A DNA stretch of 64,000 bases from contig NC_015681.1 of NCBI RefSeq assembly GCF_000217795.1, forward strand, positions 1 through 64,000, read 5' to 3'. The notes under the pieces are model-generated. The model searched no databases. It saw only the letters and a list, made by a program, of their open reading frames with translations, and was not told the origin of the DNA. A program made the translations under genes and the position numbers. The stretch is from Thermodesulfatator indicus DSM 15286. GTDB lineage: Bacteria; Desulfobacterota; Thermodesulfobacteria; Thermodesulfobacteriales; Thermodesulfatatoraceae. Of the stretch, positions 21,429 through 60,863 are shown piece after piece. Position 1 is the stretch's first letter, and the number at the start of each line of letters is the position of its first letter.

Positions 21429-22507
21429 GGGACAGGCAAAAATTTTCAGGTCTCCCAAAATTCTGCCGATATAAGGGACAGGTGCCGATATAAGGGACAG
21501 GCAAAGAAAAAATTTAGGAGGTCTCTTATGCCACGTATCCCACGTTTTTTCATGAATGATCCACGAGCCGCTTATCATGTAATCTCCCGCACCGCCTTGC
21601 CCGGCCACCATGTCCTCGGCGACGAAGAAAAAGAACACTTACTCCATCTTATTAGTTGGCTCTCGCAGGTCTATTTCGTCGAAGTTTATGGCTTCGCCAT
21701 TATGGGTAACCATTTCCATCTCCTCTGCCGCATGCTCCCTGAAGACCAGTTCTCTGACGAAGAAGTAAAACGCCGCATTCGCCTCTACTACGGCGAGAAA
21801 CGCAAAATTTTCTTCTACGAAGAGGTGCTCAAAAAATGGCGGAAAAGGCTTGGAAATCTTTCTCGATACGTCCAGGACATCAAACAGCGCTTTTCACGCT
21901 GGTATAACAAGCGCGTTGACCGCAAGGGCTATTTCTGGGCTGACAGGTTTAAGTCCGTAATCATTGAAACTGGGGAGGCTTTGCTCAACTGCTTGGCTTA
22001 CATAGAGCTAAACCCGGTGCGGGCAGGAATTGTAGAAAAGCCAGAAAACTACCGCTGGTGCTCGCTAGGATACAGAGCAAGAAGAGGGACAGGCAAAACT
22101 TTTCTGTCGCTTGATATAGGACTTCCGCGGTATGAGGGAAAAAGCGAGAAAGAAAAATTTGAGCTTTTGCGGGAGTTTGTTTATGGCAAGGGCGGGCTTG
22201 GCAAACCAGAACGAGGGACAGGCAAAAATTTAAGACAAAGAGTCAGTTTTTTTACAGAAGGTCTGGCTATCGGAAGCAAAGATTTTGTGAAAAGTGCGGC
22301 CACAAGGTTAAAGAGATTTCTCGGGCTCAAACGAGGAAGAAAAAGTAAAAAGATAAAAGATTGGGCAGATATGGCTTTTATCTGAGCTAAACTTTACTTG
22401 CAATTTTTGGATAAATCTCGGAAAGAAATCTTTAAAAAATAAAATCGAAAATTTCACTTGTCTTTTAATTCGACTGTCCCCCTATTTTAACTGTCCCCCT
22501 ATTTTAA
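21429..22507 (+). mobile_element. RAYT transposon-like unit, copy 1
   Basis: Unit around the first REP-associated tyrosine transposase gene. The left side starts with GGGACAGGCAAA (21429-21440). It then has two tandem copies of a 19-base unit containing GGGACAGG (21464-21501), and another GGGACAGGCAAA at 21494-21505 just before the gene. The right side ends in two tandem copies of CTGTCCCCCTATTTTAA (22474-22490 and 22491-22507). Unlike copy 2, the right end lacks the full GCAAA part of the motif. The limits are my estimate from these ends. Confidence 0.6.
21528..22385 (+). CDS. REP-associated tyrosine transposase (RAYT), copy 1
   Basis: A 285-residue Y1/HUH transposase of the TnpA-REP type. 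The metal-binding motif is MGNHFHLL (His62, His64). The probable catalytic tyrosine is Tyr114 in LSRYVQDIKQRF. KGYFWADRFKSV and YIELNPVRAGIVEKPE are family-typical. The start ATG follows AGGAGG. The N-terminal two-thirds is almost identical to the copy at 45889-46746; the C-terminal third is clearly more diverged. The sequence GGGACAGGCAAA occurs twice inside the gene, in frame as Gly-Thr-Gly-Lys, at 22086-22097 and 22215-22226. Confidence 0.92.
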   Translation: MPRIPRFFMNDPRAAYHVISRTALPGHHVLGDEEKEHLLHLISWLSQVYFVEVYGFAIMGNHFHLLCRMLPEDQFSDEEVKRRIRLYYGEKRKIFFYEEVLKKWRKRLGNLSRYVQDIKQRFSRWYNKRVDRKGYFWADRFKSVIIETGEALLNCLAYIELNPVRAGIVEKPENYRWCSLGYRARRGTGKTFLSLDIGLPRYEGKSEKEKFELLREFVYGKGGLGKPERGTGKNLRQRVSFFTEGLAIGSKDFVKSAATRLKRFLGLKRGRKSKKIKDWADMAFI

Positions 22508-22581
22508 GCTAAGACCAAGGAATTGAATCAATGAATATTGGGTAGTTTTGGAATTTTTGTAAGACAGATTAAAATTTAGAC

Positions 22582-23517
22582 ATGACCAAAAACCCTTTCG
22601 AAGTGCTAGGAATATCTCCTGAAATGGTTAGAGACCTTGATGAAGAGGCCTTATTTGGCCTGGTCAAGGCTTGTTATCGAGCCCTTCAGCGAGCTTACCA
22701 CCCAGACATGCAAACTAACGGCAAAGAAAAGGCAGTAGAACTTAATCTGGCCTTTGAAGCTCTTGATCTTGAACGAAATCCGGATTCTTTTAAGATACAT
22801 CGAAAAGCTTATTTAAGACGACTTTCCCGCCGTACCCAAAAAAAAACTATCGACGATTTAACTAAAAAAGTAGCCACTCTTTTGCGTCAGAAAGAACTCC
22901 TTGCTGAAAATTTTTGGCAACATCTTTTAATTAACTCGGAATCTCCTCGCGCGACTTTATTTCCCGAACAACCAAAAGATTTAAAAGTTACTCTGCTAGA
23001 CCTAGGTCTTAAATTTAATGCCTCTTTTACCGGTTTTGCCAGGCACGTGGCCTTTAAGGAAATACTTTTTGACGAAGAGGGAAAGCTTTATTATCGTTTT
23101 CCCAAAAGGCGATACTTTCAGCCAGTAAATTTTATTACTCTGGTTGGTTCCGTTTCTAGGCGCAAATTAGAAATTTGGCCACTTCTTGAAAAAGAGCCCA
23201 CACCTGAAGCCGCTGAAGACGGTTTACCTGATCTTAAAGCCTTTAAAATATTAAATGCCATTTCAGTAGAAGTATTTAAAAGAACATGTCTTCCCTTGTT
23301 GAAGACTTCTCTTCATGAAAATGCCTATCTATTTTCTTTACATCGACGTTATTCATTAATAGAGCCTCTGGTATTTGTTGAAGGAATGATATTAAAAATA
23401 GAACCAGCTACTTCTAAAGATTTTTCTAAAATAATAAAAAAGTCTGTATCCCAAAAAACTCCAGAATTGCCTTCAGGTTTTTTAGCTTTAACTTCTCACA
23501 AAGACAGTTCTGCCTAA
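22582..23517 (+). CDS. J-domain protein with unknown C-terminal region
   Basis: A 311-residue protein starting with a J domain: NPFEVLGISPE, then the catalytic HPD in RAYHPDMQTNG, then ELNLAFEALD (about 1-65). The remaining 245 residues are basic and helical at first (LRRLSRRTQKKTID). They then become mixed alpha/beta and show no family I recognise. There are no zinc-finger repeats, so it is a type III J-protein that would recruit DnaK to a special client. The 196 bases upstream hold the right end of the RAYT unit and the leader. It is convergent with the HipA-like gene, 3 bases apart. Confidence 0.6.
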   Translation: MTKNPFEVLGISPEMVRDLDEEALFGLVKACYRALQRAYHPDMQTNGKEKAVELNLAFEALDLERNPDSFKIHRKAYLRRLSRRTQKKTIDDLTKKVATLLRQKELLAENFWQHLLINSESPRATLFPEQPKDLKVTLLDLGLKFNASFTGFARHVAFKEILFDEEGKLYYRFPKRRYFQPVNFITLVGSVSRRKLEIWPLLEKEPTPEAAEDGLPDLKAFKILNAISVEVFKRTCLPLLKTSLHENAYLFSLHRRYSLIEPLVFVEGMILKIEPATSKDFSKIIKKSVSQKTPELPSGFLALTSHKDSSA

Positions 23518-23520
23518 ACT

Positions 23521-24732
23521 TTAGACCTTTTTGAAATAAGAAATTCTCTCTTTGACTTTTTCCACAAGCATTTCTGTTCCATTAAAAGAAGCAATTCGGT
23601 CATAATAAATTAAAGCTCTCTCAGCTAAAAGCATTAATTCGCCCTTGGCCACTTCACGCGAAAAACCCATTTTTTGTCCAGCAGCTAATAAATCATCTGG
23701 AGTAATATCATTAGTTTTATCATTTATAGGCATAGTGTGCTCAGACATGCCCCAGAGGTTTCCCACCAAATCATATGCTGGAGATAACCTTAAAGTCTCT
23801 CCATCCCAAAGAAAGGCAAAGTTTTTGAGATGATCATCAGTATTTACGATGAACCAATTAAGCACCATCTGTTTATAAAAGGTCAATACATCTCTTTCTG
23901 GAAAGTGAGAATATTTTTTCACATATTGAGCGGCTACTTCATATCCTTCGTCAAACATTTCAAGGCCTCCCATCACTGTACTTAAAGAAATTAACATAAG
24001 ACGCCCGAGATAAAGGGTTTTAAGAGAAGTGATGTCGAATCTTTTTACCGCAATGCTATATATGTGTTTAGTTTTGACTAGCCAGAAGGTAGGTACTGGA
24101 ATCCCTACATCTCTTGCAAAAGCAAGGCCTTCAACCTCTACCTGAGCAATAGTATTAGGAGCAGGGTCGGTTTTTCCAGGAAATTTTACCAGCCAGGGCT
24201 GGCCATGAAAGTCAACTAAAATAGTTTTGGGTTTAGCACCACCGATATTTACTCCTGTTACGCCGATATAATTGAAGACCTCTTCTACACGCCGTGGATC
24301 AAACTCTGGTATTTCTTCTAGACACTTCTGTAAGGCTCTAAAGTTCACCCAGGTAGGCTTAGGAGGAGAGGAAGCTTCTGTATCTGAAAAAAGAAGAGCC
24401 CCTATACGGGAAGAATCTCCTATTCCTATAGCAAGATGTCTATTACGTATAAAATCAAAATCGTACTTATCTGAAAGGATCTTAAGACCCCAGGTGTCAG
24501 GGATGGTATCATCAAAAATCAGAAGAGGGGGTTTAAGTCCTTCCGTTCTAATAGGTTTATCTGTATAAGGTAGATTTATAGGATCAATGATGAATTTTTT
24601 TGTTTCGTACTGGAAGGTAATCCCTTCTCTATCTATATCTATCCAACCAATATGGTGAGGATAACCTTTGGTATCAACAAACCAAACTTTTAAGCGTCGT
24701 TCTAAAGAAAAATTAAAATGTTCTTCTTTCAT
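23521..24732 (-). CDS. HipA-like Ser/Thr kinase without an adjacent HipB
   Basis: A 403-residue HipA-family kinase. The N-terminal region includes PDTWGLKIL. The loop TGVNIGGAKPKT (about 159-170) matches the gating/P-loop segment. WLVKFPG gives the ATP-binding lysine (Lys183). FIVNTDDHLKNFAFL contains the catalytic Asp299, and SPAYDLVGN the metal-binding Asp321. At the place of the autophosphorylated serine of E. coli HipA (SVAGAQEK) this protein has Asn162 (NIGGAKPK). No small helix-turn-helix HipB gene lies on either side. Its start overlaps the MFS gene by 20 bases. It may be a stand-alone kinase rather than a toxin. Confidence 0.82.
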   Translation of the reverse strand: MKEEHFNFSLERRLKVWFVDTKGYPHHIGWIDIDREGITFQYETKKFIIDPINLPYTDKPIRTEGLKPPLLIFDDTIPDTWGLKILSDKYDFDFIRNRHLAIGIGDSSRIGALLFSDTEASSPPKPTWVNFRALQKCLEEIPEFDPRRVEEVFNYIGVTGVNIGGAKPKTILVDFHGQPWLVKFPGKTDPAPNTIAQVEVEGLAFARDVGIPVPTFWLVKTKHIYSIAVKRFDITSLKTLYLGRLMLISLSTVMGGLEMFDEGYEVAAQYVKKYSHFPERDVLTFYKQMVLNWFIVNTDDHLKNFAFLWDGETLRLSPAYDLVGNLWGMSEHTMPINDKTNDITPDDLLAAGQKMGFSREVAKGELMLLAERALIYYDRIASFNGTEMLVEKVKERISYFKKV

Positions 24733-25837
24733 TTGTTTTAATCATCTTGGGAATAAAAATAATGGGAATTAAAGCAAGAGTGGTAACTCCAGAAATAAAA
24801 AGAGGCCATTGATAGCCCCACTTTTCCCCAAGAGGCCCAAAAATAAGTGAACCAATAAAGCCTCCTAACATGATAGTCAAAGTAATTAAGCCGCTGTTTC
24901 CTCCGATACGCTCAACCCGAAAAAGCTCGGCTATCCCCACATAAGAAAGCACCATTATGGTGCCGTCTCCTACTCCGTGTAACAATCGAAAAACAAGACT
25001 TACCGTAAGATTTTCAATAATCATTCCCATGTGCCCGATTCCAGAAGCCAATAGACCCCAGATTGCAAGAAGGTAAGGGCTCACCCCTTTATTTAACCAG
25101 AGACCTACTGTAAAAGAAGTTAAACCTATCATAGCAAATTCGGCAGACATGTAAAAACCCATACCTAACAAGGAAAGTCTAAGATTTTCCCTCAAGAATA
25201 GACCATAAGAAGTGAATTCTGCCCCCCAGTGAAGATAAAATAAAAAGAGCCAAATCGCAAAAAGAAGCACCGAAGGTTTCCAAAAGTCCTCTCTATAAGT
25301 TTTGAGGCCAAAAGAAATCGGTACGTTTTTGGGAAGAAAATTTTTTATAAGGGAAAGTAGCAAATAGAAACTACCTATTAATTTGAGAATGAAACGAAAA
25401 TCAAGAACTGAAAGTAAAAGACCTCCCGCAATTCCTCCAGGGGTAAAGCCTAACATTCTTACACTGTTAAATATGCCATAAACTTTACCTACATCTCGAG
25501 AGAAGGTTTTCAGAAGTAAAGCATCAAGGCTTACCTTGAAAAGATTTTGACCTACTCCATAAATAAGATAAGCCAACATAAAAAGTGGAAATAAAAAAAT
25601 TTCACTTTTCATCCAAGAAGCAACTCCCATAAGAGCTAGAGCTAGAGCGATTAAATCTCTTGCCAAAAAGCGATCACTAGCAAGCCCTGAGGGAAAAGCA
25701 CTGATAATAGAAGTAATACTAAAAGCAGCGTAAATAATCCCTATTTCTTTTCCTGAAAAACCGCTTTCTTTTAGATAAAGAGGCATAAAAAAAGCAGTAG
25801 TAGCTAAGGCAAAGGCTCCACAGACAGAAAAAAACAA
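24713..25837 (-). CDS. Major facilitator superfamily transporter
   Basis: A 374-residue membrane protein with about 11-12 hydrophobic segments typical of MFS carriers. PSGLASDRFLARDL after the second segment resembles the MFS loop 2-3 motif (GxxxDRxGRR). The start is a TTG, the only possible start before an in-frame stop; the first membrane segment begins at once, so the N-terminus is unusually short. It overlaps the HipA-like gene by 20 bases, so both are probably one transcript. The substrate is unknown. Confidence 0.75.
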   Translation of the reverse strand: MFFSVCGAFALATTAFFMPLYLKESGFSGKEIGIIYAAFSITSIISAFPSGLASDRFLARDLIALALALMGVASWMKSEIFLFPLFMLAYLIYGVGQNLFKVSLDALLLKTFSRDVGKVYGIFNSVRMLGFTPGGIAGGLLLSVLDFRFILKLIGSFYLLLSLIKNFLPKNVPISFGLKTYREDFWKPSVLLFAIWLFLFYLHWGAEFTSYGLFLRENLRLSLLGMGFYMSAEFAMIGLTSFTVGLWLNKGVSPYLLAIWGLLASGIGHMGMIIENLTVSLVFRLLHGVGDGTIMVLSYVGIAELFRVERIGGNSGLITLTIMLGGFIGSLIFGPLGEKWGYQWPLFISGVTTLALIPIIFIPKMIKTNERRTF

Positions 25838-25870
25838 AGAAGGAAAAGATTTTTTGTCACTTTAAATTTT

Positions 25871-25892
25871 AAGGGGCACTTTTGTGCCCCTT
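25871..25892. terminator. Hairpin after ppsA
   Basis: AAGGGGCAC and GTGCCCCTT form a perfect 9-base stem around a TTTT loop, 8 bases past the ppsA stop. There is no strong T run after it on the minus strand. The GGGGCAC...GTGCCCC stem is also seen after bioB. Confidence 0.55.
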
Positions 25893-25899
25893 AGTTTAG

Positions 25900-28335
25900 T
25901 TATTCAGGTTTGATCCCCAGTTTCTTTTCAGTCTCAGCCACTAATAGCCAGGTTTTGACAATGGTATCAGGCGTAAGACTCATAGAGTCAATCCCACATT
26001 CTACTAAAAAGGCGGCAAAGTCAGGAAAATCGCTGGGAGCTTGACCACAAATCCCTACTTTACGTTTTGCCTTTTTGGCTTCTTTTATAACTTGGCGAAT
26101 AAGCTTTTTAACAGCAGGGTTTCTTTCATCATAAATATGGGCTACTAGCTCAGAGTCACGGTCAAGTCCTAAGGTAAGTTGTGTGAGGTCATTTGAACCA
26201 ATAGAAAAGCCATCAAATACCTTAGCAAATTCATCCGCCAAGATAACGTTACTCGGAATCTCACACATTACATAAACTTCAAGGCCATTTTCTCCCTGTT
26301 TAAGGCCGTATTTCTCCATCACCTGAATTACTTTTTGGCCTTCTTCAACGGTTCGACAGAAAGGAACCATAACTTTTACATTAGTAAGCCCCATTTCATC
26401 GCGAACTTTCTTTAGAGCTTTGCATTCCAGGGCGAAAGCTGGCTCAAAATTAGGGTCATAATAGCGAGAAGCCCCTCGCCAACCAAGCATTGGATTGTGT
26501 TCTACCGGCTCGTAAAGGAACCCACCTATTAAATTGGCATATTCGTTACTTTTGAAATCAGAAAGACGAACAATTACATCTTTGGGATAAAAACCCGCGG
26601 CTATCATGGCTATGCCCTGAGCCAGTTTATCCACATAATATTCGGCCTTGTTTTCGTACATAGGGGTCTTTTCATCAATAGCTTTAATTACTTTTCGAAT
26701 CTTTCTGTCTTTCTTGGCCTTTTCTTTGAGTTCTTCGTAATTAAGAAGGGCCAGAGGATGAATGGCAATGTGAGAACCAATGATAAATTCAAGTCTGGCT
26801 AGTCCCACTCCGTCGTTAGGAATTTGGCCTTGAGAAAAAGCCTTTTCGGGAATTCCCACGTTCATCATTATTTTAGTACGTGTACGTGGCATTTTAGTAA
26901 GGTCAATACGCTCTACTTCAAAAGGAATAAGCCCTTCGTACACATATCCATCTTCTCCCTGAGAACAATCCACTGTAACATCCATACCTGTTTTTATAAC
27001 CTCTGTAGCGTTGTTGGTTCCTACTATACAAGGAATACCAAGCTCTCGTGAAATAATGGCAGCGTGACAGGTTCTTCCACCACGGTTAGTCACAATAGCC
27101 GAAGCTATTTTCATAATAGGTTCCCAGTCTGGGTCGGTCATGTCAGTTACTAGGACTTCACCTTTCTGAAAATCATGAATACCAGAAACATCTTCAATAA
27201 CTCTGGCCTTCCCCTGGCCGATTTTGCTTCCAACAGCCTTTCCTACGGTAAGGACCTTACCTTCGCCTTTTAGTTTGTAAATTTCATAAAATTGTTCTTG
27301 TTTAGTTCCGTGAACCGTTTCAGGTCTTGCCTGTACAATAAAGAGTTCACCAGTTCCAACTTCTTTTCCGTCTCCGTCTTTGGCCCACTCAATATCCATC
27401 GGTCGTCCATAATGATCTTCAATAATGATAGCCCATTCAGCCAATTTTAAGATTTCATCATCGGTAAGACAAAACTTTTGACGTAATTCCTTAGGAGTTT
27501 TGATGTTTCTTACAGGGCAACGCTTACTTTTACCGTAAATCATCATTAGCTCTTTAGAGCCTAATTTCTTGGAAAGAATCGGCCGAAAACCTTTCTTGAG
27601 AGTGGGTTTGAAAACGTAAAATTCGTCAGGATTTACGGCCCCTTGCACTACATTTTCACCAAGACCCCAGGCTCCAGTAATATAAACCACTTCTCGATAT
27701 CCTGACTCAGTATCAATAGTGAACATAACCCCAGACGAAGCAGCGTCACTTCTGACCATCTTTTGAATTGCTACTGAAAGATAGACGTTAAAATGATCAA
27801 AACCTTTGTCTTGACGGTAAGAAATGGCTCTGTCAGTAAAGAGCGAGGCGAAACACCTCTTAACAAACTCGATTACATTTTCGGCCCCTCGGACATTTAA
27901 AAAGGTTTCCTGCTGACCAGCAAAAGAGGCATCTGGTAGATCTTCAGCAGTAGCTGAAGAACGAACGGCTACATCTACTTCAGGATAGTATTTTTCTTCT
28001 AACTTATGGTATGCCTCTTTGATAGAGGCAGCCAATTTCTCAGGCATTTTGGCCTTAAGAATTATCTCTCGTACTTTTTTTCCACGTCTTTGAAGATCTT
28101 TAATATCGTGAGTATCAAGACCGGTTAATATTTCTCGAATTTTATCATCAAGATGGTTCTCGTGAATAAAATAGCGATAGGCCGCCGCGGTAACCGCAAA
28201 GCCATCAGGGACATTTATCCCTTTGGGAGTCAAATTACGATACATTTCCCCTAAAGAGGCGTTTTTGCCGCCTACCAAAGGAACGTCCTTGATGGAAATT
28301 TCTTCAAACCACATAATAAGAGGTTCATTACTCAT
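25900..28335 (-). CDS. ppsA: Phosphoenolpyruvate synthase
   Basis: An 811-residue enzyme making PEP from pyruvate and ATP for gluconeogenesis. The N-terminal ATP-binding domain starts with VPLVGGKNASLGEMY and has AVRSSATAEDLPDASFAGQQ. The central swivelling domain has the phosphohistidine loop GGRTCHAAIISRELGIP. The C-terminal PEP domain has GIGSNDLTQLTLGLDRDS and VGICGQAPSD. The full length is normal. Start ATG 28335 follows AAGGAGG. The gene stands alone, with its own upstream region (28336-28502) shared with the divergent small gene. Confidence 0.96.
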   Translation of the reverse strand: MSNEPLIMWFEEISIKDVPLVGGKNASLGEMYRNLTPKGINVPDGFAVTAAAYRYFIHENHLDDKIREILTGLDTHDIKDLQRRGKKVREIILKAKMPEKLAASIKEAYHKLEEKYYPEVDVAVRSSATAEDLPDASFAGQQETFLNVRGAENVIEFVKRCFASLFTDRAISYRQDKGFDHFNVYLSVAIQKMVRSDAASSGVMFTIDTESGYREVVYITGAWGLGENVVQGAVNPDEFYVFKPTLKKGFRPILSKKLGSKELMMIYGKSKRCPVRNIKTPKELRQKFCLTDDEILKLAEWAIIIEDHYGRPMDIEWAKDGDGKEVGTGELFIVQARPETVHGTKQEQFYEIYKLKGEGKVLTVGKAVGSKIGQGKARVIEDVSGIHDFQKGEVLVTDMTDPDWEPIMKIASAIVTNRGGRTCHAAIISRELGIPCIVGTNNATEVIKTGMDVTVDCSQGEDGYVYEGLIPFEVERIDLTKMPRTRTKIMMNVGIPEKAFSQGQIPNDGVGLARLEFIIGSHIAIHPLALLNYEELKEKAKKDRKIRKVIKAIDEKTPMYENKAEYYVDKLAQGIAMIAAGFYPKDVIVRLSDFKSNEYANLIGGFLYEPVEHNPMLGWRGASRYYDPNFEPAFALECKALKKVRDEMGLTNVKVMVPFCRTVEEGQKVIQVMEKYGLKQGENGLEVYVMCEIPSNVILADEFAKVFDGFSIGSNDLTQLTLGLDRDSELVAHIYDERNPAVKKLIRQVIKEAKKAKRKVGICGQAPSDFPDFAAFLVECGIDSMSLTPDTIVKTWLLVAETEKKLGIKPE

Positions 28336-30182: not shown

Positions 30183-30248
30183 ATACCTAGCTCTATTCTT
30201 TTTTTCTATTCTTTTATAATTAATCGGCAGGTTATTATTTAAATTTAA

Positions 30249-33436: not shown

Positions 33437-33448
33437 TTTGCCTGTCCC
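33437..33448 (-). repeat. Solo GGGACAGGCAAA motif upstream of bioB
   Basis: Exact 12-base match on the minus strand, ending 24 bases before the bioB start. It lies between bioB and the divergent lipoprotein-bioA-bioF operon. It is identical to the ends of the RAYT unit at 45.8-46.8 kb. Confidence 0.75.
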
Positions 33449-45723: not shown

Positions 45724-45737
45724 AAAATTAGACAAAT
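45706..45737. repeat. Perfect 16-base tandem duplication at the rsmB stop
   Basis: AAAAAATTAGACAAAT occurs twice back to back at 45706-45721 and 45722-45737. The first copy encodes the last residues of RsmB, and the stop codon spans the junction. The RAYT copy 2 unit begins about 70 bases further on. Confidence 0.9.
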
Positions 45738-45808
45738 AAATTACATCTTTTTTTCTTTTTTCTCTTTCTTCTTTCTCTCCTCGCGTGCCACTAAATAGCG
45801 TAACAAAA

Positions 45809-46835
45809 GGGACAGGCAAAAATTTCAAGCTCCAGAGACCACATTCCGATAAGAGGGACAGGCAAAGAAAAAATTTAGGAGGTCTCTTATGCCACGCATC
45901 CCACGTTTTTTCATGAATGATCCACGAGCCGCTTATCATGTAATCTCCCGCACAGCCTTGCCCGGCCATGATGTCCTCGGCGATGATGAAAAAGAACACT
46001 TACTCCATCTTATTAGTTGGCTCTCGCAGGTCTATTTCGTCGAAGTTTATGGCTTCGCCATTATGGGTAACCATTTCCATCTCCTCTGCCGCATGCTCCC
46101 TGAAGACCAGTTCTCTGACGAAGAAGTAAAACGCCGCATTCGCCTCTACTACGGCGAGAAACGCAAAATTTTCTTCTACGAAGAGGTGCTCAAAAAATGG
46201 CGGAAAAGGCTTGGAAATCTTTCTCGATACGTCCAGGACATCAAGCAGCGCTTTTCACGCTGGTATAACAAGCGCGTTGACCGCAAGGGCTATTTCTGGG
46301 CTGACAGGTTCAAGTCCGTCATCATTGAGACAGGCGAGGCTCTGCTTAATTGTCTGGCTTACATAGAGTTAAACCCGGTGCGGGCAGGAATTGTAGAAAA
46401 GCCAGAAGACTATCGCTGGTGCTCGCTAGGATACAGAGCAAGAAAAGGGACAGGCAAAACTTTTTTGACGCTTGATATCGGCCTTCCGTCCTATGCTAAC
46501 AAATCAGAAAAAGAGCGCTTCAGGCTTTATCGGAAATTTGTTTACGGCAAAGGTGGGCTTGACGAGCCAGAAAGAGGGACAGGCAAAATCTTCCGGCAAA
46601 GAATCAATTTTTTTACAAAAGGTCTGGCTATTGGAAGCAAAGGTTTTGTAGAAAGTGCGGCCTTAAAGTTAAAAAGATTTCTCGGGCTCAAACGAGGAAG
46701 AAAAAGTAAAACGATAAAAGACTGGACAGATATGGCTTTTATCTGAGCTTAAAACTTACTTGACTTGTAATTTTTGGATAAAATTTCGGAAAGAAATCTT
46801 TTTAAATTTAAAAAATGAAAAATTTTGCCTGTCCC
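45809..46835 (+). mobile_element. RAYT transposon-like unit, copy 2, with inverted ends
   Basis: About 1027 bases bounded by GGGACAGGCAAAAATTT at the left (45809-45825) and its near-inverse AAAATTTTGCCTGTCCC at the right (46819-46835). Another GGGACAGGCAAA lies at 45855-45866, just before the gene. Leader and 3' flank resemble those of copy 1. This copy defines the probable element ends better than copy 1 does. Confidence 0.7.
45889..46746 (+). CDS. REP-associated tyrosine transposase (RAYT), copy 2
   Basis: A 285-residue Y1/HUH transposase, sister of the gene at 21528-22385. MGNHFHLL gives the HUH histidines. Tyr114 in LSRYVQDIKQRF is the likely nucleophile. YIELNPVRAGIVEKPE is family-typical. 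A block of roughly 240 bases in the first half is identical in DNA to copy 1, while the last third differs at many sites. GGGACAGGCAAA occurs in frame at 46447-46458 and 46576-46587. The start follows AGGAGG. The reading frame is intact, so the protein may be active. Confidence 0.92.
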   Translation: MPRIPRFFMNDPRAAYHVISRTALPGHDVLGDDEKEHLLHLISWLSQVYFVEVYGFAIMGNHFHLLCRMLPEDQFSDEEVKRRIRLYYGEKRKIFFYEEVLKKWRKRLGNLSRYVQDIKQRFSRWYNKRVDRKGYFWADRFKSVIIETGEALLNCLAYIELNPVRAGIVEKPEDYRWCSLGYRARKGTGKTFLTLDIGLPSYANKSEKERFRLYRKFVYGKGGLDEPERGTGKIFRQRINFFTKGLAIGSKGFVESAALKLKRFLGLKRGRKSKTIKDWTDMAFI

Positions 46836-46874
46836 TAATTGTTCTTTGAGGTATTTTTGAGTATTTTGCGAGGC

Positions 46875-48896: not shown

Positions 48897-48907
48897 GGGA
48901 CAGGCAA
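48897..48907 (+). repeat. Solo GGGACAGGCAA motif
   Basis: An 11 of 12 match to the RAYT-end motif, lying between the aminotransferase promoter and the 3' end of the SpmAB-like gene. Confidence 0.6.
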
Positions 48908-48965
48908 TTTATGTTTAAAACTAGTCGCCTTTACTTATTTCTAGGGCTTCACACTAAGGGCTTTA

Positions 48966-51599: not shown

Positions 51600-51629
51600 A
51601 ATGCCTCCCTTGCCATATAGATTTTTTAA

Positions 51630-53287: not shown

Positions 53288-54983
53288 CTTCGGTTAAACG
53301 AGTGACCTCCTCCATAAATTGATAAAATTTTTTCAAATCTTCAATGTAATTATCCGTAAGGTGAATGTGAAGTACCGGGCGATTATCTTCACTTAAGGCC
53401 TGAAAGTCACCGTAGGCCTGAGCAAACTCGAGATCCCAAAAAGTAAAACCGAATTCTGGAATAATTTGATCTTCCCGCCGACCTTTACGGGTAAAAATAA
53501 AAAATCGCCCAGAACGTGGCCCACCTTTAAAGAGCTGGCCAATAGAATGAAGATATCGAGGACCAAAACCCATAATAGTGGAACACTGGCGTCTTCCGCG
53601 CAAAAGGGTTCTTAAATCAGTAAAAATTTCTTCTATCTCAGGATCGTAAGGTAAAAAGGGGAGAAAGGCGAAATATCCCCAGGGAGGTGTTTCGTAAAGT
53701 AGTTTTTTCATCACCGCCCTTAGCCTAGGATACTGGACTTTTAACCCCCCGGCGTATAAAAAACCCACGTCTAAATCATCATCCACATAAAATTCAATGG
53801 GAAAGTCTCCGGTTTTTACAAAGGTATCCAATACCTCTTTGGTTTTTTTCTTGGCCCGAATTACATCAGGCTCATCAAAGGGATTAAGCCCTAACCATAC
53901 CCCACAGAGGGCTACAGCCAGCTCCCAGCGAAAACACTCAGCTCCTAATTCGTAACGGTCATCAAGAAAATATTGCTTCAAGGGAAAACCCGCTTCTTTA
54001 AGGTCACTAAAGAGGCGACGATAAAGATCCTGCCTACCCCTTAAACCAAGATAGACAAAAACCCGGTCAGGACCATAAACCGTAGGAGAACCTGGAGATT
54101 CCCCCACAATGGGAATAATTCCAGTAAACTCCTTACCAAGGCTTTCGGCTACTAATTGTTCTATCCACAGGGAGAAAGGCCTGAGTAGAGGATCGGCCAT
54201 AATGGTAAGTTTATCATGACCTAAGAAGAAATGTTCGGCCATATACTCTGAGAGCCAGGCGGCGGGATTGAGCTCCCAGGGAATATCAGGAGAGCAAGCC
54301 TCTTGCATTTCTTGAGCTTTATCAAGAAATCGTTCCACCTCAAGCCCCATAAGGGCAGCCGGCAAAAGGCCAACGTATGTAAGCGCTGCATAACGCCCAC
54401 CTATATCTTTCGGGTTCAAAAAAACTTTTAGAAAAGCCTTTTCTTCCCCTTCTTTGTGAAGAGGAGTACCTTCGTCGGTGATAGCCACGAAATGGCTTCC
54501 GGGATTATCGGTTATCTGGGATACCTTTTCCCAAAAATAGTGAAACTGGGTTAAGGTTTCTATAGTGGTGCCTGACTTGCTAGCAATAATGAAAAGGGTC
54601 TTTTTCAGGTCTTTTTCTTCGATTTTGGCTATTTCTTCAGGGTCAGTGGTATCAAGCACGTTAAAATTGGGCCATCCTTCTTCTGGACCAAAAATCTTGG
54701 TCAGAGCCAGGGGGAAAAGGCTCGATCCCCCCATACCACAAAGAACAATTTCAGAAAACTCCTCTTTTACTTTGGCAGCAAATTCTTTTATTTCTGGGAG
54801 TTTTGAGCGCATACGTTGAGGAGCATCCACCCAACCTAGGCGATTTTTAATGGCCTTTTGAAGGTCTTGGTCATCTGTAAAAACTGAAGGATCTTTAGCA
54901 AATATAGCGGAAATGATCTTTCTCTTTTCGTCTTCACTCAACTTAGTCGGACGCAAAAGTCTTGCTCTTTTTTGAGAATCCAT
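53277..54983 (-). CDS. pgi: Glucose-6-phosphate isomerase
   Basis: A 568-residue phosphoglucose isomerase interconverting glucose-6-P and fructose-6-P. CGMGGSSLFPLAL and FIIASKSGTTIET form the sugar-phosphate site. FLNPKDIGGRYAALTYVGLL is the family signature. Start ATG 54983 follows AGGAGGAAGAA; an upstream start at 55067 would add 28 residues of no family likeness. The C-terminal 200 residues are longer than in small bacterial forms and resemble the part of Tal-Pgi fusions that follows transaldolase. The neighbouring channel gene overlaps it. Confidence 0.92.
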   Translation of the reverse strand: MDSQKRARLLRPTKLSEDEKRKIISAIFAKDPSVFTDDQDLQKAIKNRLGWVDAPQRMRSKLPEIKEFAAKVKEEFSEIVLCGMGGSSLFPLALTKIFGPEEGWPNFNVLDTTDPEEIAKIEEKDLKKTLFIIASKSGTTIETLTQFHYFWEKVSQITDNPGSHFVAITDEGTPLHKEGEEKAFLKVFLNPKDIGGRYAALTYVGLLPAALMGLEVERFLDKAQEMQEACSPDIPWELNPAAWLSEYMAEHFFLGHDKLTIMADPLLRPFSLWIEQLVAESLGKEFTGIIPIVGESPGSPTVYGPDRVFVYLGLRGRQDLYRRLFSDLKEAGFPLKQYFLDDRYELGAECFRWELAVALCGVWLGLNPFDEPDVIRAKKKTKEVLDTFVKTGDFPIEFYVDDDLDVGFLYAGGLKVQYPRLRAVMKKLLYETPPWGYFAFLPFLPYDPEIEEIFTDLRTLLRGRRQCSTIMGFGPRYLHSIGQLFKGGPRSGRFFIFTRKGRREDQIIPEFGFTFWDLEFAQAYGDFQALSEDNRPVLHIHLTDNYIEDLKKFYQFMEEVTRLTEDDT

Positions 54984-55136
54984 TTCTTCCTCCTGGTATT
55001 TTTGTCTTTTAAGTTTTATACTCACCCTCAAAAGTATGGCAAGAACTATTTTGGCTAATCGAGGCATAATAATTTTTGCTCTAAAACTTTACCAAAACAC
55101 TTGGCTTTTTTCTCAGTAAAAGTTATCTTTATCTCG

Positions 55137-55439
55137 ATGCGAGAAAAAGTTAGTTCTACCAAGGAAGAAGGCAAAAAAAGGCGCTTTGTCATCATTAAAA
55201 AACAGCCCTTTTTTACCAATACTACCAGGATAGTCTGTCCTTTTTGCGGCAATGACGAAGACTTCTGGGAGCATGCTGAAGGAGTCACTATAAAAACCCA
55301 TTACGTTCAGAACGAAGACGGAAGCTTCTCCCCCGTAAGCGACGATACCCAAATTTTTGGAGAAATTCGTTTTATATGCGGCAAATGTAATTCCGATTTA
55401 ACAAAGTATCACAAACAATTCCTTGAGATGCTCTTTTAA
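55137..55439 (+). CDS. Small zinc-ribbon protein
   Basis: About 100 residues. CPFCGNDEDFWEHAEG and CGKCNSDLTKYHK give two CxxC pairs about 45 residues apart, a probable zinc ribbon. Between them is a beta-rich stretch. ATG 55137 is chosen; a start at 55101 is possible. The stop overlaps the ATP-grasp gene (TAATG). I do not recognise a named family. The tight coupling implies work with the ATP-grasp protein. Confidence 0.65.
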   Translation: MREKVSSTKEEGKKRRFVIIKKQPFFTNTTRIVCPFCGNDEDFWEHAEGVTIKTHYVQNEDGSFSPVSDDTQIFGEIRFICGKCNSDLTKYHKQFLEMLF

Positions 55440-56230
55440 TGCGCAATCCCTGGGTAATTCTTTCCAACCGGGCCCTTCGCAAACTATACCATGAATTACA
55501 AGCAGGAGACGCCTTTATAGGAAGGCTTGCAGTAAAATACGGTGAGGAATTTATCTTCCTAGACCTTGAAGCCCGTGGGGTCAAAGCTTATCCATCTCTT
55601 TTGGCCCAACATCTGGCCCGCTCTAAATGCTTTCAGGCTCAGGTGTTTAGCCATTTCATGCTCCCTCATACCCGACTTATTAGAGACCGGCACGATCTTA
55701 TTAAAACCGCTAACGAATACGGCTCTCTCGGTGTTAAAAAAGTTGTTTTAAAACAGGACCGTTTTAACTGTGGCCTAGGCATACATCTTTTCGAACACAT
55801 AGAAGAAGTTATGAATCTGGCAAGCTTTGGAAATCTCCCCTATCCTTTTGTTTTACAGCCTTTTGCCGAAGAAATAACTGATGTGCGGGTAATCATCTTG
55901 GGTAATTATCTTGAAGCTTACTCACGGAAAAATCCTTATAACTTTCGCAATAACCTTTTTTTTGGCGGAGAAGCTAAACCTTACAAGCTAAATGATGAAG
56001 AGCTTTCGTTTTGTAAAAAGGTAATGAAAAGAGGCGATTTCCCTTACGCCCACATTGATCTTATGATACTGCCTGACGGACGTTTTTATCTTTCAGAGAT
56101 AAACTTGCGAGGAGGCTTAAAAGGCGCCCAAATAACAGCAAAAGATTACGAGGCCAAAGTTGAAGAACTTCACCGAAATTTTCTCCAAAAATACCTAGAA
56201 AAAAATCCGCAAGCCAAAGTGTGGGAATAA
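55439..56230 (+). CDS. ATP-grasp ligase-like protein of unknown substrate
   Basis: A 263-residue protein with a RimK-like ATP-grasp look. After a short N-terminal domain, HTRLIRDRHDLIKTA leads into VKKVVLKQDRFNCGLGIHLF (glycine-rich loop), FVLQPFAEEITDVRVIIL (ATP-binding and Arg), and AHIDLMILPDGRFYLSEINL with the acidic and Asn metal ligands. RGGLKGAQ closes the site. Such enzymes join a carboxylate to an amine using ATP. It is translationally coupled to the zinc-ribbon gene. The substrate is unknown. Confidence 0.75.
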   Translation: MRNPWVILSNRALRKLYHELQAGDAFIGRLAVKYGEEFIFLDLEARGVKAYPSLLAQHLARSKCFQAQVFSHFMLPHTRLIRDRHDLIKTANEYGSLGVKKVVLKQDRFNCGLGIHLFEHIEEVMNLASFGNLPYPFVLQPFAEEITDVRVIILGNYLEAYSRKNPYNFRNNLFFGGEAKPYKLNDEELSFCKKVMKRGDFPYAHIDLMILPDGRFYLSEINLRGGLKGAQITAKDYEAKVEELHRNFLQKYLEKNPQAKVWE

Positions 56231-56231
56231 T

Positions 56232-56435
56232 TTAACTTTTAGTCTTTTGCCCTTCGGGTGGAAGTAATTCTTCTATAGACAGACCATATTTTTGTGAAAT
56301 CTCAAGAAGGGTGGAAAAAAGCTCTTCACAAAGCAAACATACACCTATTTTTTCTCCAAGCTCACGGTAAAAGGCCTGTGTTTCTGGATACTTAATAACG
56401 ATATCAAGAAGTGTTTTGTTTTCTAACTCAGACAT
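56232..56435 (-). CDS. DUF1858-like small protein
   Basis: A 67-residue protein. TLLDIVIKYPETQAFYRELG, then CLLCEELFSTLLEISQKYG and IEELLP, follows the pattern of DUF1858/ScdA-N domains (a helix, a Cys-containing turn, a helix). Those domains are often linked to iron-sulfur or hybrid-cluster proteins. ATG 56435 (MSELENKTLL) is chosen as start. It overlaps the previous gene of the operon by 13 bases. It is last in the YedE-TusA operon. Confidence 0.7.
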   Translation of the reverse strand: MSELENKTLLDIVIKYPETQAFYRELGEKIGVCLLCEELFSTLLEISQKYGLSIEELLPPEGQKTKS

Positions 56436-57277
56436 CTTTTTAAAGCCTCTCCCAAATAAGGAATTATTTCTTTTATCTGTGTAGCAGGCATTGGTTTGGC
56501 CAATAGACCTGCCAAACGGTTGGCCTTGGCCGCCACCACACAAGCCTCTTTTATGCCCAAACCCTTAGCTAAGAGGGCTCCCACAAGACCTGTTAAAGTA
56601 TCGCCTGTGCCGCCAATGGCCTCAAGGGCCTCAACTACCGGTTCTTCAATTTCGGCTTCAATGCGTCCGTCAATAACGACCAGGTCCTTATGACCTTTAA
56701 CTAGCAAGGCTTTAGCGGCATTTTTATGGGCATAGGCCCGTTCTATAAACTCTTCTACTTTCTCCTCATCTGGAAAAAGAAAACCGCGAGTATAAAGGGG
56801 ATGAGGGGCCTTTTCGTCAGCTAAAAAGGCAAGTTCACCAAGGTCTGGGGTGAAGAGGTCATAGGAAGGGGCAAGACCGGCCATTTTAGCCGCATACATA
56901 AAACCAGCATCAGCCACAAGGATTGGCCTTTGAGATATCTTTTCAACACCAAGAAACACTTTTCCCTGGCCATCAACATCAGGAAAAAGGTAATGAAAGA
57001 CCAGCACTTTAAAGTTTCTTTTAGGCAAGTCTTCAGACAAAAAATCATAAAGTTTGCGGCTCCCCTCGCCTTTACCTGTATCTCCAACTAGGTAAACAAA
57101 GGGCGGGGAAAGGCCTAAAACCTTTAAAGCTTCAAGACAAGCGGCGATGAGAGCCGGGGTTCCGCGCGCTATTTCTACTTGGTGGCCTTTTAAACAAATG
57201 TTACCACCCTCCGATGTAGCTTCACTGTAAACCAGAGGAAAGTCAGCCGAAGGAACCGTACCTACGATGGCAAGCAT
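56423..57277 (-). CDS. NnrD-like kinase/dehydratase (YjeF C-terminal family)
   Basis: A 284-residue protein with the ribokinase-like fold of the ADP-dependent NAD(P)H-hydrate dehydratases. The end has the family motif AIGGTGDTLTGLVGALLAKG, and LLVKGHKDLVVIDG precedes it. VADAGFMYAAKMAG and LFTPDLGELAFLAD fit the same family. The N-terminal YjeF epimerase domain is missing. Placement between a DUF3343 protein and a DUF1858 protein hints at a role other than NADHX repair. It overlaps both neighbours (16 and 13 bases). Confidence 0.78.
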   Translation of the reverse strand: MLAIVGTVPSADFPLVYSEATSEGGNICLKGHQVEIARGTPALIAACLEALKVLGLSPPFVYLVGDTGKGEGSRKLYDFLSEDLPKRNFKVLVFHYLFPDVDGQGKVFLGVEKISQRPILVADAGFMYAAKMAGLAPSYDLFTPDLGELAFLADEKAPHPLYTRGFLFPDEEKVEEFIERAYAHKNAAKALLVKGHKDLVVIDGRIEAEIEEPVVEALEAIGGTGDTLTGLVGALLAKGLGIKEACVVAAKANRLAGLLAKPMPATQIKEIIPYLGEALKRCLS

Positions 57278-57816
57278 CTTTTCTTGGCCTCCTCAAGGGC
57301 CAGCTGAAGGGTATAACCACAAAGAGTATGCCCGAACGCCCTTGGCTCTGGAGTCTGGTCTAAAGGTTTTCCCACCATAATAGAGGCCAGAAACGGCACA
57401 TCCGGGCACCCACCTCCTGAAATATTCACTATGGCTTTATTTCTTTTATCAACAGTTATTTTCATGTTAGCTACGTGAATCATAATGTAATCTCCGAAGT
57501 CTTTTACGCGACACATATCAACCGGTTCAAGCAAAGGGTCCTCTACAGGTACCAGAGAAAGTGGCCTTAAATTGTTCTCTTCAAGAAAGCGAGAGATTTC
57601 CAGTTTGAGCATCAAGGGAAACTCAATAACCATGTCGCACCCTTGGCGCACTTCTGGCGGGGGAGCTTTAACTTTTACCGGAAAACCTGCTTTTTTAAGC
57701 AACTCCTCGGCTCTTATCACTTCACTGGTGTTTTCAAAAAGCAAAAAACCTTTTTCAACGTCTGCGTCTTTTTTCTTATCTGAAGATAATCGAAATTTTT
57801 TAAAAAATTTAAGCAT
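57262..57816 (-). CDS. DUF3343 putative Se/S carrier with extra C-terminal domain
   Basis: A 184-residue protein. Residues about 18-85 look like DUF3343 (GFLLFENTSEVIRAEELLKK, then PPEVRQGCDMVIEF), the family named as a putative selenium/sulfur carrier. The second half has SGGGCPDVPFLASIMVGKPL and FGHTLCGYTLQLALEEA, with conserved-looking cysteines, and I do not know its family. It lies 8 bases after tusA on the same strand. A role in carrying reduced selenium or sulfur is inferred from family and neighbours. Confidence 0.75.
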   Translation of the reverse strand: MLKFFKKFRLSSDKKKDADVEKGFLLFENTSEVIRAEELLKKAGFPVKVKAPPPEVRQGCDMVIEFPLMLKLEISRFLEENNLRPLSLVPVEDPLLEPVDMCRVKDFGDYIMIHVANMKITVDKRNKAIVNISGGGCPDVPFLASIMVGKPLDQTPEPRAFGHTLCGYTLQLALEEAKKRCLPS

Positions 57817-57824
57817 AAATGGCT

Positions 57825-58037
57825 CTATTTAGCGATTATAAGTTTGTATTCGCCATTTTCTTCAACTATTTCTTTAACCTTCCAGCCTTTAGAAGCTACA
57901 GCCCGACTTACGTTTTCTCTAGCCGCTTCGGTATCTACCAGGACCACCAGCTCACCTTCCTTCATTTTTTCAATAGCTTCAAGGGTTAGTAAAACAGGCT
58001 GAGGACAGGAAAGCCCTCTGGCATCTACTGTATTCAT
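57825..58037 (-). CDS. TusA/SirA-like sulfur (selenium) carrier
   Basis: A 70-residue TusA-fold protein. The active Cys lies in ARGLSCPQPVLLT, the CPxP motif that carries persulfide. The rest (VVLVDTEAARENVSRAVASK) follows the family pattern. It lies 12 bases after the yedE-like gene. In this setting it could pass sulfur or selenium from the membrane protein to the DUF3343 protein. Confidence 0.92.
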   Translation of the reverse strand: MNTVDARGLSCPQPVLLTLEAIEKMKEGELVVLVDTEAARENVSRAVASKGWKVKEIVEENGEYKLIIAK

Positions 58038-58049
58038 AAACTCCCTCCC

Positions 58050-59132
58050 CTATTTTCTTCTCATAATAAGGCCTACGGCCACGCAAAAGATTAAACCAAT
58101 GATTACCCCAGCCATACTATGAGGGCTAATTCCTTTAGGAGTAGCGGCCATGGCAAAGTTATGAGCAAAAGCCGCTCCAATAAGCATACCCAGGGCAAAA
58201 ATGGCCGCATCGGTATCACCTTCACCTGAAAGGAATAATTGCCGCCCGGGACATCCTCCTGCCAGGGCAAAGGCTAAACCCGCCAGTACCATACCGGCAA
58301 AATTCCAGAAGGCCTGGGTATGAGCAGCTGGCTGCCCGGTAAACCCCGGATGAAATTGGCCTAAGATTAAGTTTACCAAAAGGGCGGTACTGAAAAAGGC
58401 AAGAACTCCGAAAAAGAGATGACCCTGGCGGAAAAGAATGAGGTCCCTAAAGGCACCCATGGTGCAAAAACGGCTTCTCTGGGCAAGAATCCCTATTAAG
58501 AGGCCTGCTCCTATGGAAATAAAGACAGGGGCAAACATGGTACCTGGGCCTTTAATACTGTAAAAAAGAACACCACTTTTGGGTTCACCAGGAATAGGCG
58601 GAAAAACAAGCCTTAAAAGCAAAAGACCGGCCATGACGACGGGAAAGACTAAGCCGGCTCCCCAGCCTAAACGCTGAGTGCGTCCTAAATCAAAACCTTG
58701 CTTAAAAAAGAATATCCCTATAGAAATACCGGTTACCAGGCCAATAAGACCAAAGATGGCGTTCAGGTCTCCACCGGCGAGTCTCAAAATAGTTCTCCAG
58801 GGGCAGCCCAGAAACACAAGAGCGCCTATCATAGCGAAAAAACCGAGGAAAAACCTGATAATAGGGGCCGAACCACCTCTAGGCCTGAACTCTTTAAATA
58901 GCATGGCCGCTAAGAAAGAACCCAAGACAAAAGAAGGGATTTCTGGACGAAGGTATTGAACCACTGCTGCCCTATGAAGACCTAAAGAACCGGCAATATC
59001 CCTTAAAAAACAGGCCACACAGACACCCATGTTGCCAGGATTACCAAACTTCTGAAGCAGAGGTGCAAGAACCCCTATAACCACTCCTACGGAAATTATG
59101 CCCAAAGTGGTAGCAAAAAAGTTTCTTTTCAT
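58050..59132 (-). CDS. YedE/YeeE-family selenium or sulfur transporter
   Basis: A 360-residue membrane protein with about ten segments and two inverted halves. The family cysteine motifs are seen: CVACFLRDIAGSLGL and GCPWRTILRLAGGD in the first half, RSRFCTMGAFRDLI and GGCPGRQLFLSGEGD in the second. YedE proteins take up thiosulfate-like sulfur or serve selenium metabolism. The TusA and DUF3343 genes behind it and the divergent LysR gene fit the selenium type. Start ATG 59132 follows GGAGG. Confidence 0.88.
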   Translation of the reverse strand: MKRNFFATTLGIISVGVVIGVLAPLLQKFGNPGNMGVCVACFLRDIAGSLGLHRAAVVQYLRPEIPSFVLGSFLAAMLFKEFRPRGGSAPIIRFFLGFFAMIGALVFLGCPWRTILRLAGGDLNAIFGLIGLVTGISIGIFFFKQGFDLGRTQRLGWGAGLVFPVVMAGLLLLRLVFPPIPGEPKSGVLFYSIKGPGTMFAPVFISIGAGLLIGILAQRSRFCTMGAFRDLILFRQGHLFFGVLAFFSTALLVNLILGQFHPGFTGQPAAHTQAFWNFAGMVLAGLAFALAGGCPGRQLFLSGEGDTDAAIFALGMLIGAAFAHNFAMAATPKGISPHSMAGVIIGLIFCVAVGLIMRRK

Positions 59133-59239
59133 AAAGCCTCCTGGAAACTTAGAAATTCAAGTGCTTAATATCAATAAGTTATCTATAAGACAAATTGTTT
59201 TTTTCTATAATTTAGTCCGTTTTTATTGGTCAAATATAA

Positions 59240-59251
59240 TTTGCCTGTCCC
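59240..59251 (-). repeat. Solo GGGACAGGCAAA motif upstream of the LysR gene
   Basis: Exact 12-base match on the minus strand in the divergent yedE-lysR gap, 45 bases before the chosen LysR start. Confidence 0.75.
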
Positions 59252-59296
59252 CAAAATATGGGATTAAAATGGTCTAAAATTCTTAAGGATTTAAAA

Positions 59297-60214
59297 GTGT
59301 TCGACCTTAAAAAACTGGAAGTTTTCGTTAAGGTTATTGAAACCGGGAGTTTTTCTAAAGCGGCAGAGCTTTGCCATCTTACCCAACCTACGGTATCAGG
59401 GCATATTAAACAGCTTGAAGAGTATTACGAAGTCCCCCTTATAGACCGTCATACCCGTGAAGTAAAACCTACACCTGCGGGGCTTCTACTTCATAGATAT
59501 GCCAAACACATTTTACGTTTGTGGGAAGAGTTTGAAAGGGAAATGCACTCTTACAAAGGCGGACAAAAAGGGAAACTAAGGATCGGTGGCAGCACGATAC
59601 CCGGCCAATACATTCTGCCCTTTGTTCTCTGCCGTTTTAACCAAAAGTTCCCTAAAATTAAGATCAATCTTCAAATTGCTGATACTAAAGTCGTAGCCGA
59701 AGGGGTAGTTAAAGGCGAACTGGAATTGGGTATAATCGGGGCCAAAGTTATGCCCCATCAACTACACTTTGAGCCCGTCTGTAATGACGAAATAATCCTT
59801 GTTATTCATAAAGATTATCCTCACGAAATAGCCCAAAAAAAACAAATTACCGTGGAAGAGATACCTGATATTCCTCTAATTATCAGGGAAAAAGGCTCTG
59901 GTACTTGGCTTACCACGCAAAATACGCTCAAAAAGCTAGGGCTTTCTCCACAGCGCTTAAATGTTGTGGCTGAACTTGGTTCAACAGAAGCCGTCCGCCA
60001 GGCAGTTAAGGCCAAACTGGGAGCTTCTTTTATTTCAGAAATAGCCGTTAAAGAAGACCTTGAACGAGGAATTTTCAAAAAGATAGAGGTAAAAAACCTG
60101 GTTATAAAAAGACACTTTTACTTGATTTATCCATCTAAAAAAAACCTGGCCCCTCTTGCCGAAATCTTTATAGATTTTTTAAAGGAATCTTCTTCCTCTA
60201 TGGAACAAGATTAA
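59297..60214 (+). CDS. LysR-type regulator, probably selenium-metabolism type
   Basis: A LysR regulator of about 305 residues. The helix-turn-helix reads LEVFVKVIETGSFSKAAELC and LTQPTVSGHIKQLEEYY. The effector domain begins with LRIGGSTIPGQYILP and continues with ELGIIGAKVMP. This wording resembles the selenium-metabolism LysR group known from anaerobic Desulfo-type bacteria. GTG 59297 (MFDLKKLEVF) is preferred because AAGGA lies upstream at good spacing; ATG 59258 is the alternative. It is divergent from the YedE operon and is its natural regulator. Confidence 0.88.
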   Translation: MFDLKKLEVFVKVIETGSFSKAAELCHLTQPTVSGHIKQLEEYYEVPLIDRHTREVKPTPAGLLLHRYAKHILRLWEEFEREMHSYKGGQKGKLRIGGSTIPGQYILPFVLCRFNQKFPKIKINLQIADTKVVAEGVVKGELELGIIGAKVMPHQLHFEPVCNDEIILVIHKDYPHEIAQKKQITVEEIPDIPLIIREKGSGTWLTTQNTLKKLGLSPQRLNVVAELGSTEAVRQAVKAKLGASFISEIAVKEDLERGIFKKIEVKNLVIKRHFYLIYPSKKNLAPLAEIFIDFLKESSSSMEQD

Positions 60215-60218
60215 CCTT

Positions 60219-60797
60219 TTAACTTTCTTGTTCGGGCTTTTCAGGTGGCGTTTTTTCAAAGATTTCCCAGAGAGGGATTTTTAGGTTAATTGTTTTCAAT
60301 TCAAGGGTTTCGTCCCAGTTTGTAATTTCAGGGGCGTGGTACCTACCATTTTCCAGGCGATAAACCTCGGCGTATTCCCGCTCGGGATAAACAATCACAT
60401 ATTCTTGCACGCCAAAGCGCTCGTAAAGCCTTAATTTCTCCCGGCGATCTTTTATTTCCGTATGAGGTGAAATTACTTCAATAACTACGTCAGGGGCTCC
60501 GGCAACATGGGTTTCTTTTAATTTATCACGGTCACAGACTACGAAGACATCAGGCTGAACGACATTTCTTTCGTCAAAAACAACATCTGTAGGTGCAATG
60601 CCCGTATAGCACGGATTTTCAGGATGGGTTTTTAGTTTAACATAAAGATTACCTACAATATTCTGGTGTTTTATTGATGGTGCTGGGCTCATGTTATAGG
60701 CCTGGCCGTCAATAATTTCCCAGCGCTCATCATCAGGCCAGGAAAGATAGTCCTGATAAGTAAAGCCTTCTTCTTTCTTGGAAGCAGGATACGCCAT
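60219..60797 (-). CDS. Uma2-family (DUF820) putative endonuclease
   Basis: A 192-residue PD-(D/E)XK-type protein. ERWEIIDGQAYNMSPAPS, VVQPDVFVVCD, GAPDVVIEVISPHTEIKDRR and KLRLYERFGVQEYVIVYPE are the ordered family motifs. The acidic residues and Lys of the nuclease-like site are present. ATG 60797 follows AGGAGGTG. These genes are common in some lineages with unknown role. It stands alone and is convergent with the LysR gene. Confidence 0.88.
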   Translation of the reverse strand: MAYPASKKEEGFTYQDYLSWPDDERWEIIDGQAYNMSPAPSIKHQNIVGNLYVKLKTHPENPCYTGIAPTDVVFDERNVVQPDVFVVCDRDKLKETHVAGAPDVVIEVISPHTEIKDRREKLRLYERFGVQEYVIVYPEREYAEVYRLENGRYHAPEITNWDETLELKTINLKIPLWEIFEKTPPEKPEQES

Positions 60798-60851
60798 AAG
60801 CACCTCCTTTTTGTTGATTATAACATGGCCTTTGTCCAGTGCATTTATTGG

Positions 60852-60863
60852 TTTGCCTGTCCC
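60852..60863 (-). repeat. Solo GGGACAGGCAAA motif upstream of the ahb-type gene
   Basis: Exact 12-base match on the minus strand, ending 24 bases before the ahb-type start. This is the same spacing and orientation as upstream of bioB. Confidence 0.75.

Follow-up and report, generated by a model that had tools for sequence, protein, structure and literature searches.

A transposase-end motif as a probable driven and maintained genome-wide word in Thermodesulfatator indicus

The closest described systems are the TIRYT/TIRtron elements (Di Nocera 2013, PMC3733652) and subclass 2.1 of the TnpA-Y1 transposases (Quentin 2018, PMC6006769). Some TIR families are known to be repeated, and dispersed TIR repeats have been described as likely transposase products (PMC3733652, PMC6006769). 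For E. coli TnpA-REP, single-stranded REP DNA was found to be cleaved and recombined in vitro (PMC8266576). The motif described here is carried by transposases of this kind. It also occurs in place inside conserved codons, which neither TIRYT paper reports (PMC3733652, PMC6006769); such in-place spelling is not described for the known repeats of this transposase family.

The window analyzed is the first 64 kb of the single-contig genome of T. indicus (2,322,224 bases, 2.32 Mb; designated G000). It holds two RAYT genes and 12 exact copies of the 12-base motif GGGACAGGCAAA (Table 1), all at the coordinates and on the strands given in a preliminary description. This description had held that a fixed 12-mer should be nearly absent from such a stretch by chance, and shuffles bear this out (mean 0.01 copies, maximum 1). 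The 11/12 match that it listed at 48897 is real, but a second one, at 375 on the minus strand, had been overlooked; both carry one identical change, GGGACAGGCAAT. It placed eight of the 12 copies in or beside the transposase genes, whereas nine belong to the two RAYT loci, including 46824, which it had correctly taken for the inverted right end of copy 2. Of the copies it assigned to gene gaps, those at 33437 and 59240 are intergenic, while that at 60852 lies in a short overlap between two possible ORF starts. To the right of copy 2, homology to Thermodesulfatator autotrophicus picks up again at 46839. The two right-end repeats of copy 1 are tandem, dissimilar and end-like, each followed on the plus strand by a CCCCCTATTTT-like sequence; they are possibly the ends of another TIR family.

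Table 1. Positions of the RAYT genes and motif copies in the window, and of the converging motif pairs in the genome
Feature	Position	Strand	Remarks
Copy 1, outer upstream motif (-99)	21429..21440	+	
Copy 1, inner upstream motif (-34)	21494..21505	+	Directly ahead of the ribosome-binding site
RAYT copy 1	21528..22385	+	Group A, 285 aa; HUH 'GNHFHLL', tyrosine motif YIELNP; PF01797 E = 1.9e-9
Copy 1, internal motif (+558)	22086..22097	+	In frame, GTGK
Copy 1, internal motif (+687)	22215..22226	+	In frame, GTGK
Copy 1, degenerate right-end repeats	22469..22497	-	GGGACAGTCGAA + GGGACAGTTAAA
Stand-alone motif	33437..33448	-	Between divergent genes; in place in T. autotrophicus: GGGACAGGTAAA
Copy 2, outer upstream motif (-80)	45809..45820	+	Left terminal repeat
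Copy 2, inner upstream motif (-34)	45855..45866	+	
RAYT copy 2	45889..46746	+	Group A, 285 aa; 91% identical to copy 1; fold match 4er8
Copy 2, internal motif (+558)	46447..46458	+	GTGK; aligns with G-N-K of distant RAYTs
Copy 2, internal motif (+687)	46576..46587	+	GTGK
Copy 2, inverted right-end motif	46824..46835	-	
One-mismatch copy	48897..48908	+	GGGACAGGCAAT
Stand-alone motif	59240..59251	-	Between genes
Stand-alone motif	60852..60863	-	In place in T. autotrophicus: GGGACAGGCCAA
Converging pairs (genome positions)	G000:281166, 507298, 623296, 625025, 695374, 998387, 1457876, 1510174		

T. indicus encodes 17 RAYT homologues, 73 to 100% identical and none with internal stops. Both window RAYTs are Y1 HUH proteins with NHFH and YIELNP, corresponding to the signatures NH[VYF]H and YIELNP tabulated for TnpA-Y1 transposases (PMC6006769). 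They match PF01797 above cut-off; with NF047646 (REP_Tyr_transpos) they score 63-64 bits, under the curated cut-off of 80, and this is nevertheless the best match of all 23 relatives, among which H62, H64, Y158 and N162 are invariant. A sequence search against solved structures gave no match, and the best fold match of a model of copy 2 (mean pLDDT 78) was the E. coli RAYT-REP complex 4er8 (E = 1.3e-5). Subclass 2.1 proteins carry a C-terminal domain related to the helix-turn-helix; a Pfam search of the window RAYTs gave no helix-turn-helix match, and the model shows a helical C-terminal tail at low confidence. The flanking repeats fit the TIRYT form GGGG[AT][CG]A[CG] (GGGGACAG if a G stands in front). 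On sequence grounds, the window motif is the repeat conserved at the ends or flanks of a RAYT family associated with TIRs (TIRYT). Its membership in the RAYT family, already claimed in the preliminary description, is upheld: almost all copies have it two times upstream and also within the gene, its core recurs at distant RAYTs, and it is abundant only where a close RAYT is present.

The typical layout comprises two direct motifs upstream (about -80 and -34) and one or two in-frame internal motifs (+558 and +687). An inverted right-hand motif was found at RAYTs 45889, 324481 and 2117611, most of the others having only the upstream direct repeats; in Desulfoluna, repeats are clear on both sides of several copies. 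RAYTs of the MPRIPRFFMND group carry the CAAA form, and those of the MPRIPRLLTN group mostly the sister spelling GGGACAGGCGAA. Two dialects strictly tied to groups A and B were considered and rejected: the upstream repeats fit, but the +687 motif of group A is often CGAA, and the group B gene 618690 has CAAA inside. Position 10 was therefore taken as A/G-tolerant.

There are signs of movement in the family. Contig C106 of T. autotrophicus has the 5' flank of RAYT 45889 running straight into the 3' flank of RAYT 2061743, with no RAYT between, which implies that RAYTs arrived or were lost since the two species split. Flanks seem to have been exchanged between window positions 45724-46839 and G000:2061726-2062700, and the RAYTs 45889 and 2061743, 95% identical in T. 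indicus, have probably recombined, to judge from these alignments. At least two RAYTs, 993495 and 618690, occupy positions common to both species.

The whole T. indicus genome contains 144 exact copies of GGGACAGGCAAA (65 forward, 79 reverse) and none of its reversed control word. The sister spelling GGGACAGGCGAA adds 63 copies. Most copies of GGGACAGGCAAA (108 of 144) stand alone, that is, away from any RAYT. The sequence retrieved consisted of the stretches around motif sites and a sample. The logo widens the motif to [A/G]GGGACAGGC[A/G]AA, with A favoured next after it. As for the preceding base, the preference is stronger in T. autotrophicus than in T. indicus: A 56, G 11 and C 1 among 68 copies fetched from partly overlapping loci. 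Five copies lie within 8 kb in a chelatase-like gene cluster (G000:2065928-2073946), of which three are exact and one has the CGAA form in T. autotrophicus. Eight pairs of copies converge over loops of 2-23 bases, mostly between genes (Table 1), and could act as terminators; that at 695374 is common to T. autotrophicus, where its loop is altered.

The motif follows the RAYT across genomes. Counted in the full genome and its relatives, copies of GGGACAGGCAAA and close RAYTs number 144 and 17 in T. indicus, 136 and 18 in T. autotrophicus S606 (G007), 38 and 11 in the genus-mate G004, where many RAYTs are cut by contig ends, and 4 and 1 in the sister genus (G008). Five genus-mates lacking a close RAYT are nearly motif-free, with 0, 1, 1, 1 and 2 copies, and other genomes of the order have 0-2. 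The finding that the preliminary description named as refuting its link, a similar density in relatives lacking a RAYT, was thus not made. Likewise, GGGACAGGCGAA occurs 63, 57 and 7 times in G000, G007 and G004, and not once in the five RAYT-less genus-mates. This co-occurrence may amount to a single event, as G000, G004 and G007 are congeneric and may go back to a common ancestor. In the sister genus, the only RAYT (G008 C33, L134, about 1351-1759) has near-motif words inside the gene, GGGACAGGCGAA, GGGACAGGCAAC and GGGACAGGCACA, which may represent an early stage.

RAYTs 44-51% identical occur in other genera, and there GGGACAGGC is followed by three bases that are either different or the same (Candidatus Anammoxibacter ..CTTA, Desulfoluna ..CTCT, a Desulfohalobiaceae MAG ..CGAA and a SAR324 MAG ..CAAA). 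Genomes of Desulfoluna and the other distant RAYT carriers each have 2-41 occurrences of the matching word. In Desulfoluna many matches form pairs about 1.3 kb apart, as expected of RAYT ends, so that by its arrangement the equivalent word there appears to be mainly RAYT ends, without spread.

Orthologous DNA of G007, G004 and G005 was then aligned to the T. indicus motif sites. With G007, about 81% identical, an alignment spanning the motif was obtained for 37 stand-alone sites, almost all of them within genes. At 20 of them the motif is exact and at one it has the CGAA form; 14 have 1-4 substitutions at equal length, 2 have small indels, and a clean 12-bp insertion was seen at none. Of 3319 control 12-mers from these alignments, only 256 (7.7%) are exact. 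Identity to G007 is 92% for the motif and 80% for its flanks, and wobble bases are conserved at 72 of 84 positions versus 482 of 834. Older near-matches are visible in the outgroups. In G007, fmt has GGCACTGGTAAA and the triosephosphate isomerase gene has GGCACAGGCAAA; GGGGCTTGTAAA is an antisense example. G004 has ERGK or EAGK where G000 and G007 carry GTGK; the internal +558 motif of the RAYT itself likewise aligns with G-N-K in distant RAYTs. Wherever species could be compared, these alignments indicate that stand-alone copies were mostly spelled into already similar DNA, not pasted, even at the core of ATP-binding genes that are essential.

At least half of the stand-alone copies (56 of 108) lie within ORFs of at least 150 aa, and 32 of these 56 read GTGK in the sense frame. 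Many such GTGK copies are Walker-A P-loops, of NtrC-type activators, MinD/ParA-like proteins, RecN, ABC proteins and chelatase-like proteins. Further copies agree with conserved strings, GTGK or the like, in triosephosphate isomerase, methionyl-tRNA formyltransferase and pyrroline-5-carboxylate reductase (all genes named by eye). We searched for GxxGTGK in every spelling and counted the exact motif spelling. It was used in 16 of 36 cases in G000, 14 of 41 in G007 and 6 of 27 in G004, all RAYT-bearing, compared to 0 of 34 in G005, 0 of 20 in G003 and 1 of 31 in G006, all RAYT-less. Because GxxGTGK also catches chance matches beside stand-alone motifs, a conservative by-eye count was used for the P-loops only: 29 of 97 were exact with a RAYT versus 1 of 85 without (P = 2.6e-8, an optimistic value since paralogues and sister genomes do not count as wholly independent cases). 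A purine at -1 was enriched at exact P-loops (P = 0.014 and 0.001).

We propose that [A/G]GGGACAGGC[A/G]AA is the motif conserved at the ends and flanks of a RAYT family of TIRYT type, and that in the RAYT-rich Thermodesulfatator lineage it would also have become a driven genome-wide word. Stand-alone copies arise in place out of near-matches, for instance at the GTGK codons of P-loops that bind ATP, and once formed would be held exact by a force stronger than drift. The data show the counts, the link to the RAYT, the origin in place, the excess at P-loops and the added conservation. To this pattern, a transposase-end motif turned into a driven and maintained word, we give a probability of roughly 85%. 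That the engine of the drive depends on the RAYT is an even bet. Two points lead us to prefer this engine. Across genera the word is the end repeat that the RAYT itself carries, and it reaches abundance only together with RAYTs; moreover, single-stranded REP DNA is cleaved and joined by enzymes of RAYT type (PMC8266576). The RAYT, an HUH enzyme of this kind, would bind or cut the motif and recognize its imperfect copies; through cleavage and strand transfer, or through repair that it triggers, it would bias near-matches towards the exact motif. That the transposase itself overwrites near-matching DNA with its own end motif, even in P-loop codons, and does not spread the motif by inserted copies, as a transposase-powered sequence drive, is a tentative suggestion; patch conversion of near-matches by RAYTs is not described in the RAYT literature examined. 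Against a RAYT engine, Desulfoluna has several RAYTs with matching ends and no comparable spread.

The strongest rival is a drive like that of uptake sequences (DUS of Neisseria, USS of Pasteurellaceae): a competence receptor that came to recognize the RAYT end repeat would prefer the word, its alleles would spread by transformation, and RAYTs would benefit from carrying it. This is possible, though we would not bet on it. The in-place origin and the conservation are equally expected from it; the DUS of Neisseria is 97% conserved versus about 85% for its flanks (PMC2397512), and uptake-sequence drive yields the same signatures there. As with DUS and USS, the T. indicus motif is a short, dispersed and over-represented word, spelled in place in genes and gaps, with converging intergenic pairs and more conserved than its flanks. 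It shows a Poisson spread (variance/mean 1.08) and a frame preference, two positions tolerate A or G, and one-mismatch words exceed chance only modestly (other sequence amounting to 280 kb has 4, versus about 1 for shuffled words). On the other hand, the motif is much sparser than DUS or USS, at about one copy per 11 kb with both spellings counted, it is abundant only with RAYTs, and it is identical to RAYT ends in unrelated genera. A regular-expression look for competence genes, covering only the 280 kb of fetched stretches, found none and is uninformative; no paper connecting uptake sequences with tyrosine transposases turned up in a literature search.

It is unlikely that a host function is at work, with the word selected at any place where it forms because it is the binding site of a protein for chromosome organization, recombination or regulation, perhaps a domesticated RAYT. 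Conservation above the flanks and the even spread would fit, and the word is short and over-represented like Chi or KOPS. Unlike those words, however, the motif shows no clear leading/lagging strand bias, and it is limited to the RAYT-bearing lineage, being absent from genus-mates for which such a function would be equally necessary.

More doubtful still is the proposal of the preliminary description that the motif acts as a minimal REP, if this means short mobile copies that the RAYT excises and places in gaps between genes. The REP/REPIN systems of group 2 and 3 RAYTs do share with the present system a related transposase fold (4er8) and a dispersed word tied to a transposase, and the eight converging pairs resemble REPIN-like units. 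Unlike REPs, however, the motif has no palindrome: the paired fraction at single copies is 0.49 versus 0.43 in control stretches, a hairpin signal not above background, and aligned flanks and a base profile revealed no GT[AG]G foot consistently beside it. Nor is it extragenic as a REP should be, or restricted to gaps as had been supposed, given the proportion within ORFs. In the alignments, 35 of 37 sites are exact or substituted, and the P-loop copies cannot be insertions; insertion is thus rejected for most copies, the aligned set being mostly intragenic and intergenic copies less well covered. We conclude that the motif is real and RAYT-linked, and that it is not a minimal REP, a reading already contradicted for most copies. 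Finally, codon usage or chance as the source of in-gene copies is barely credible: the motif does read GTGK, a common P-loop string, in one frame, and RAYT-less G006 has its one match, but codon frequencies at non-exact P-loops, chosen independently, predict 0.42 exact spellings among the 36 of T. indicus where 16 were observed, the next commonest spelling occurs only twice there, and the comparison with G003, G005 and G006 contradicts it.

The case bears on how RAYT-linked repeats multiply. Sister species with and without the RAYT, together with a complete genome, make it a clean natural experiment in which each gain or loss of the word can be followed at the level of codons. Either a transposase can drive its target sequence through a genome by means of conversion, or an uptake-like signal has been recruited from the end of a transposase; either would be new, and testable.
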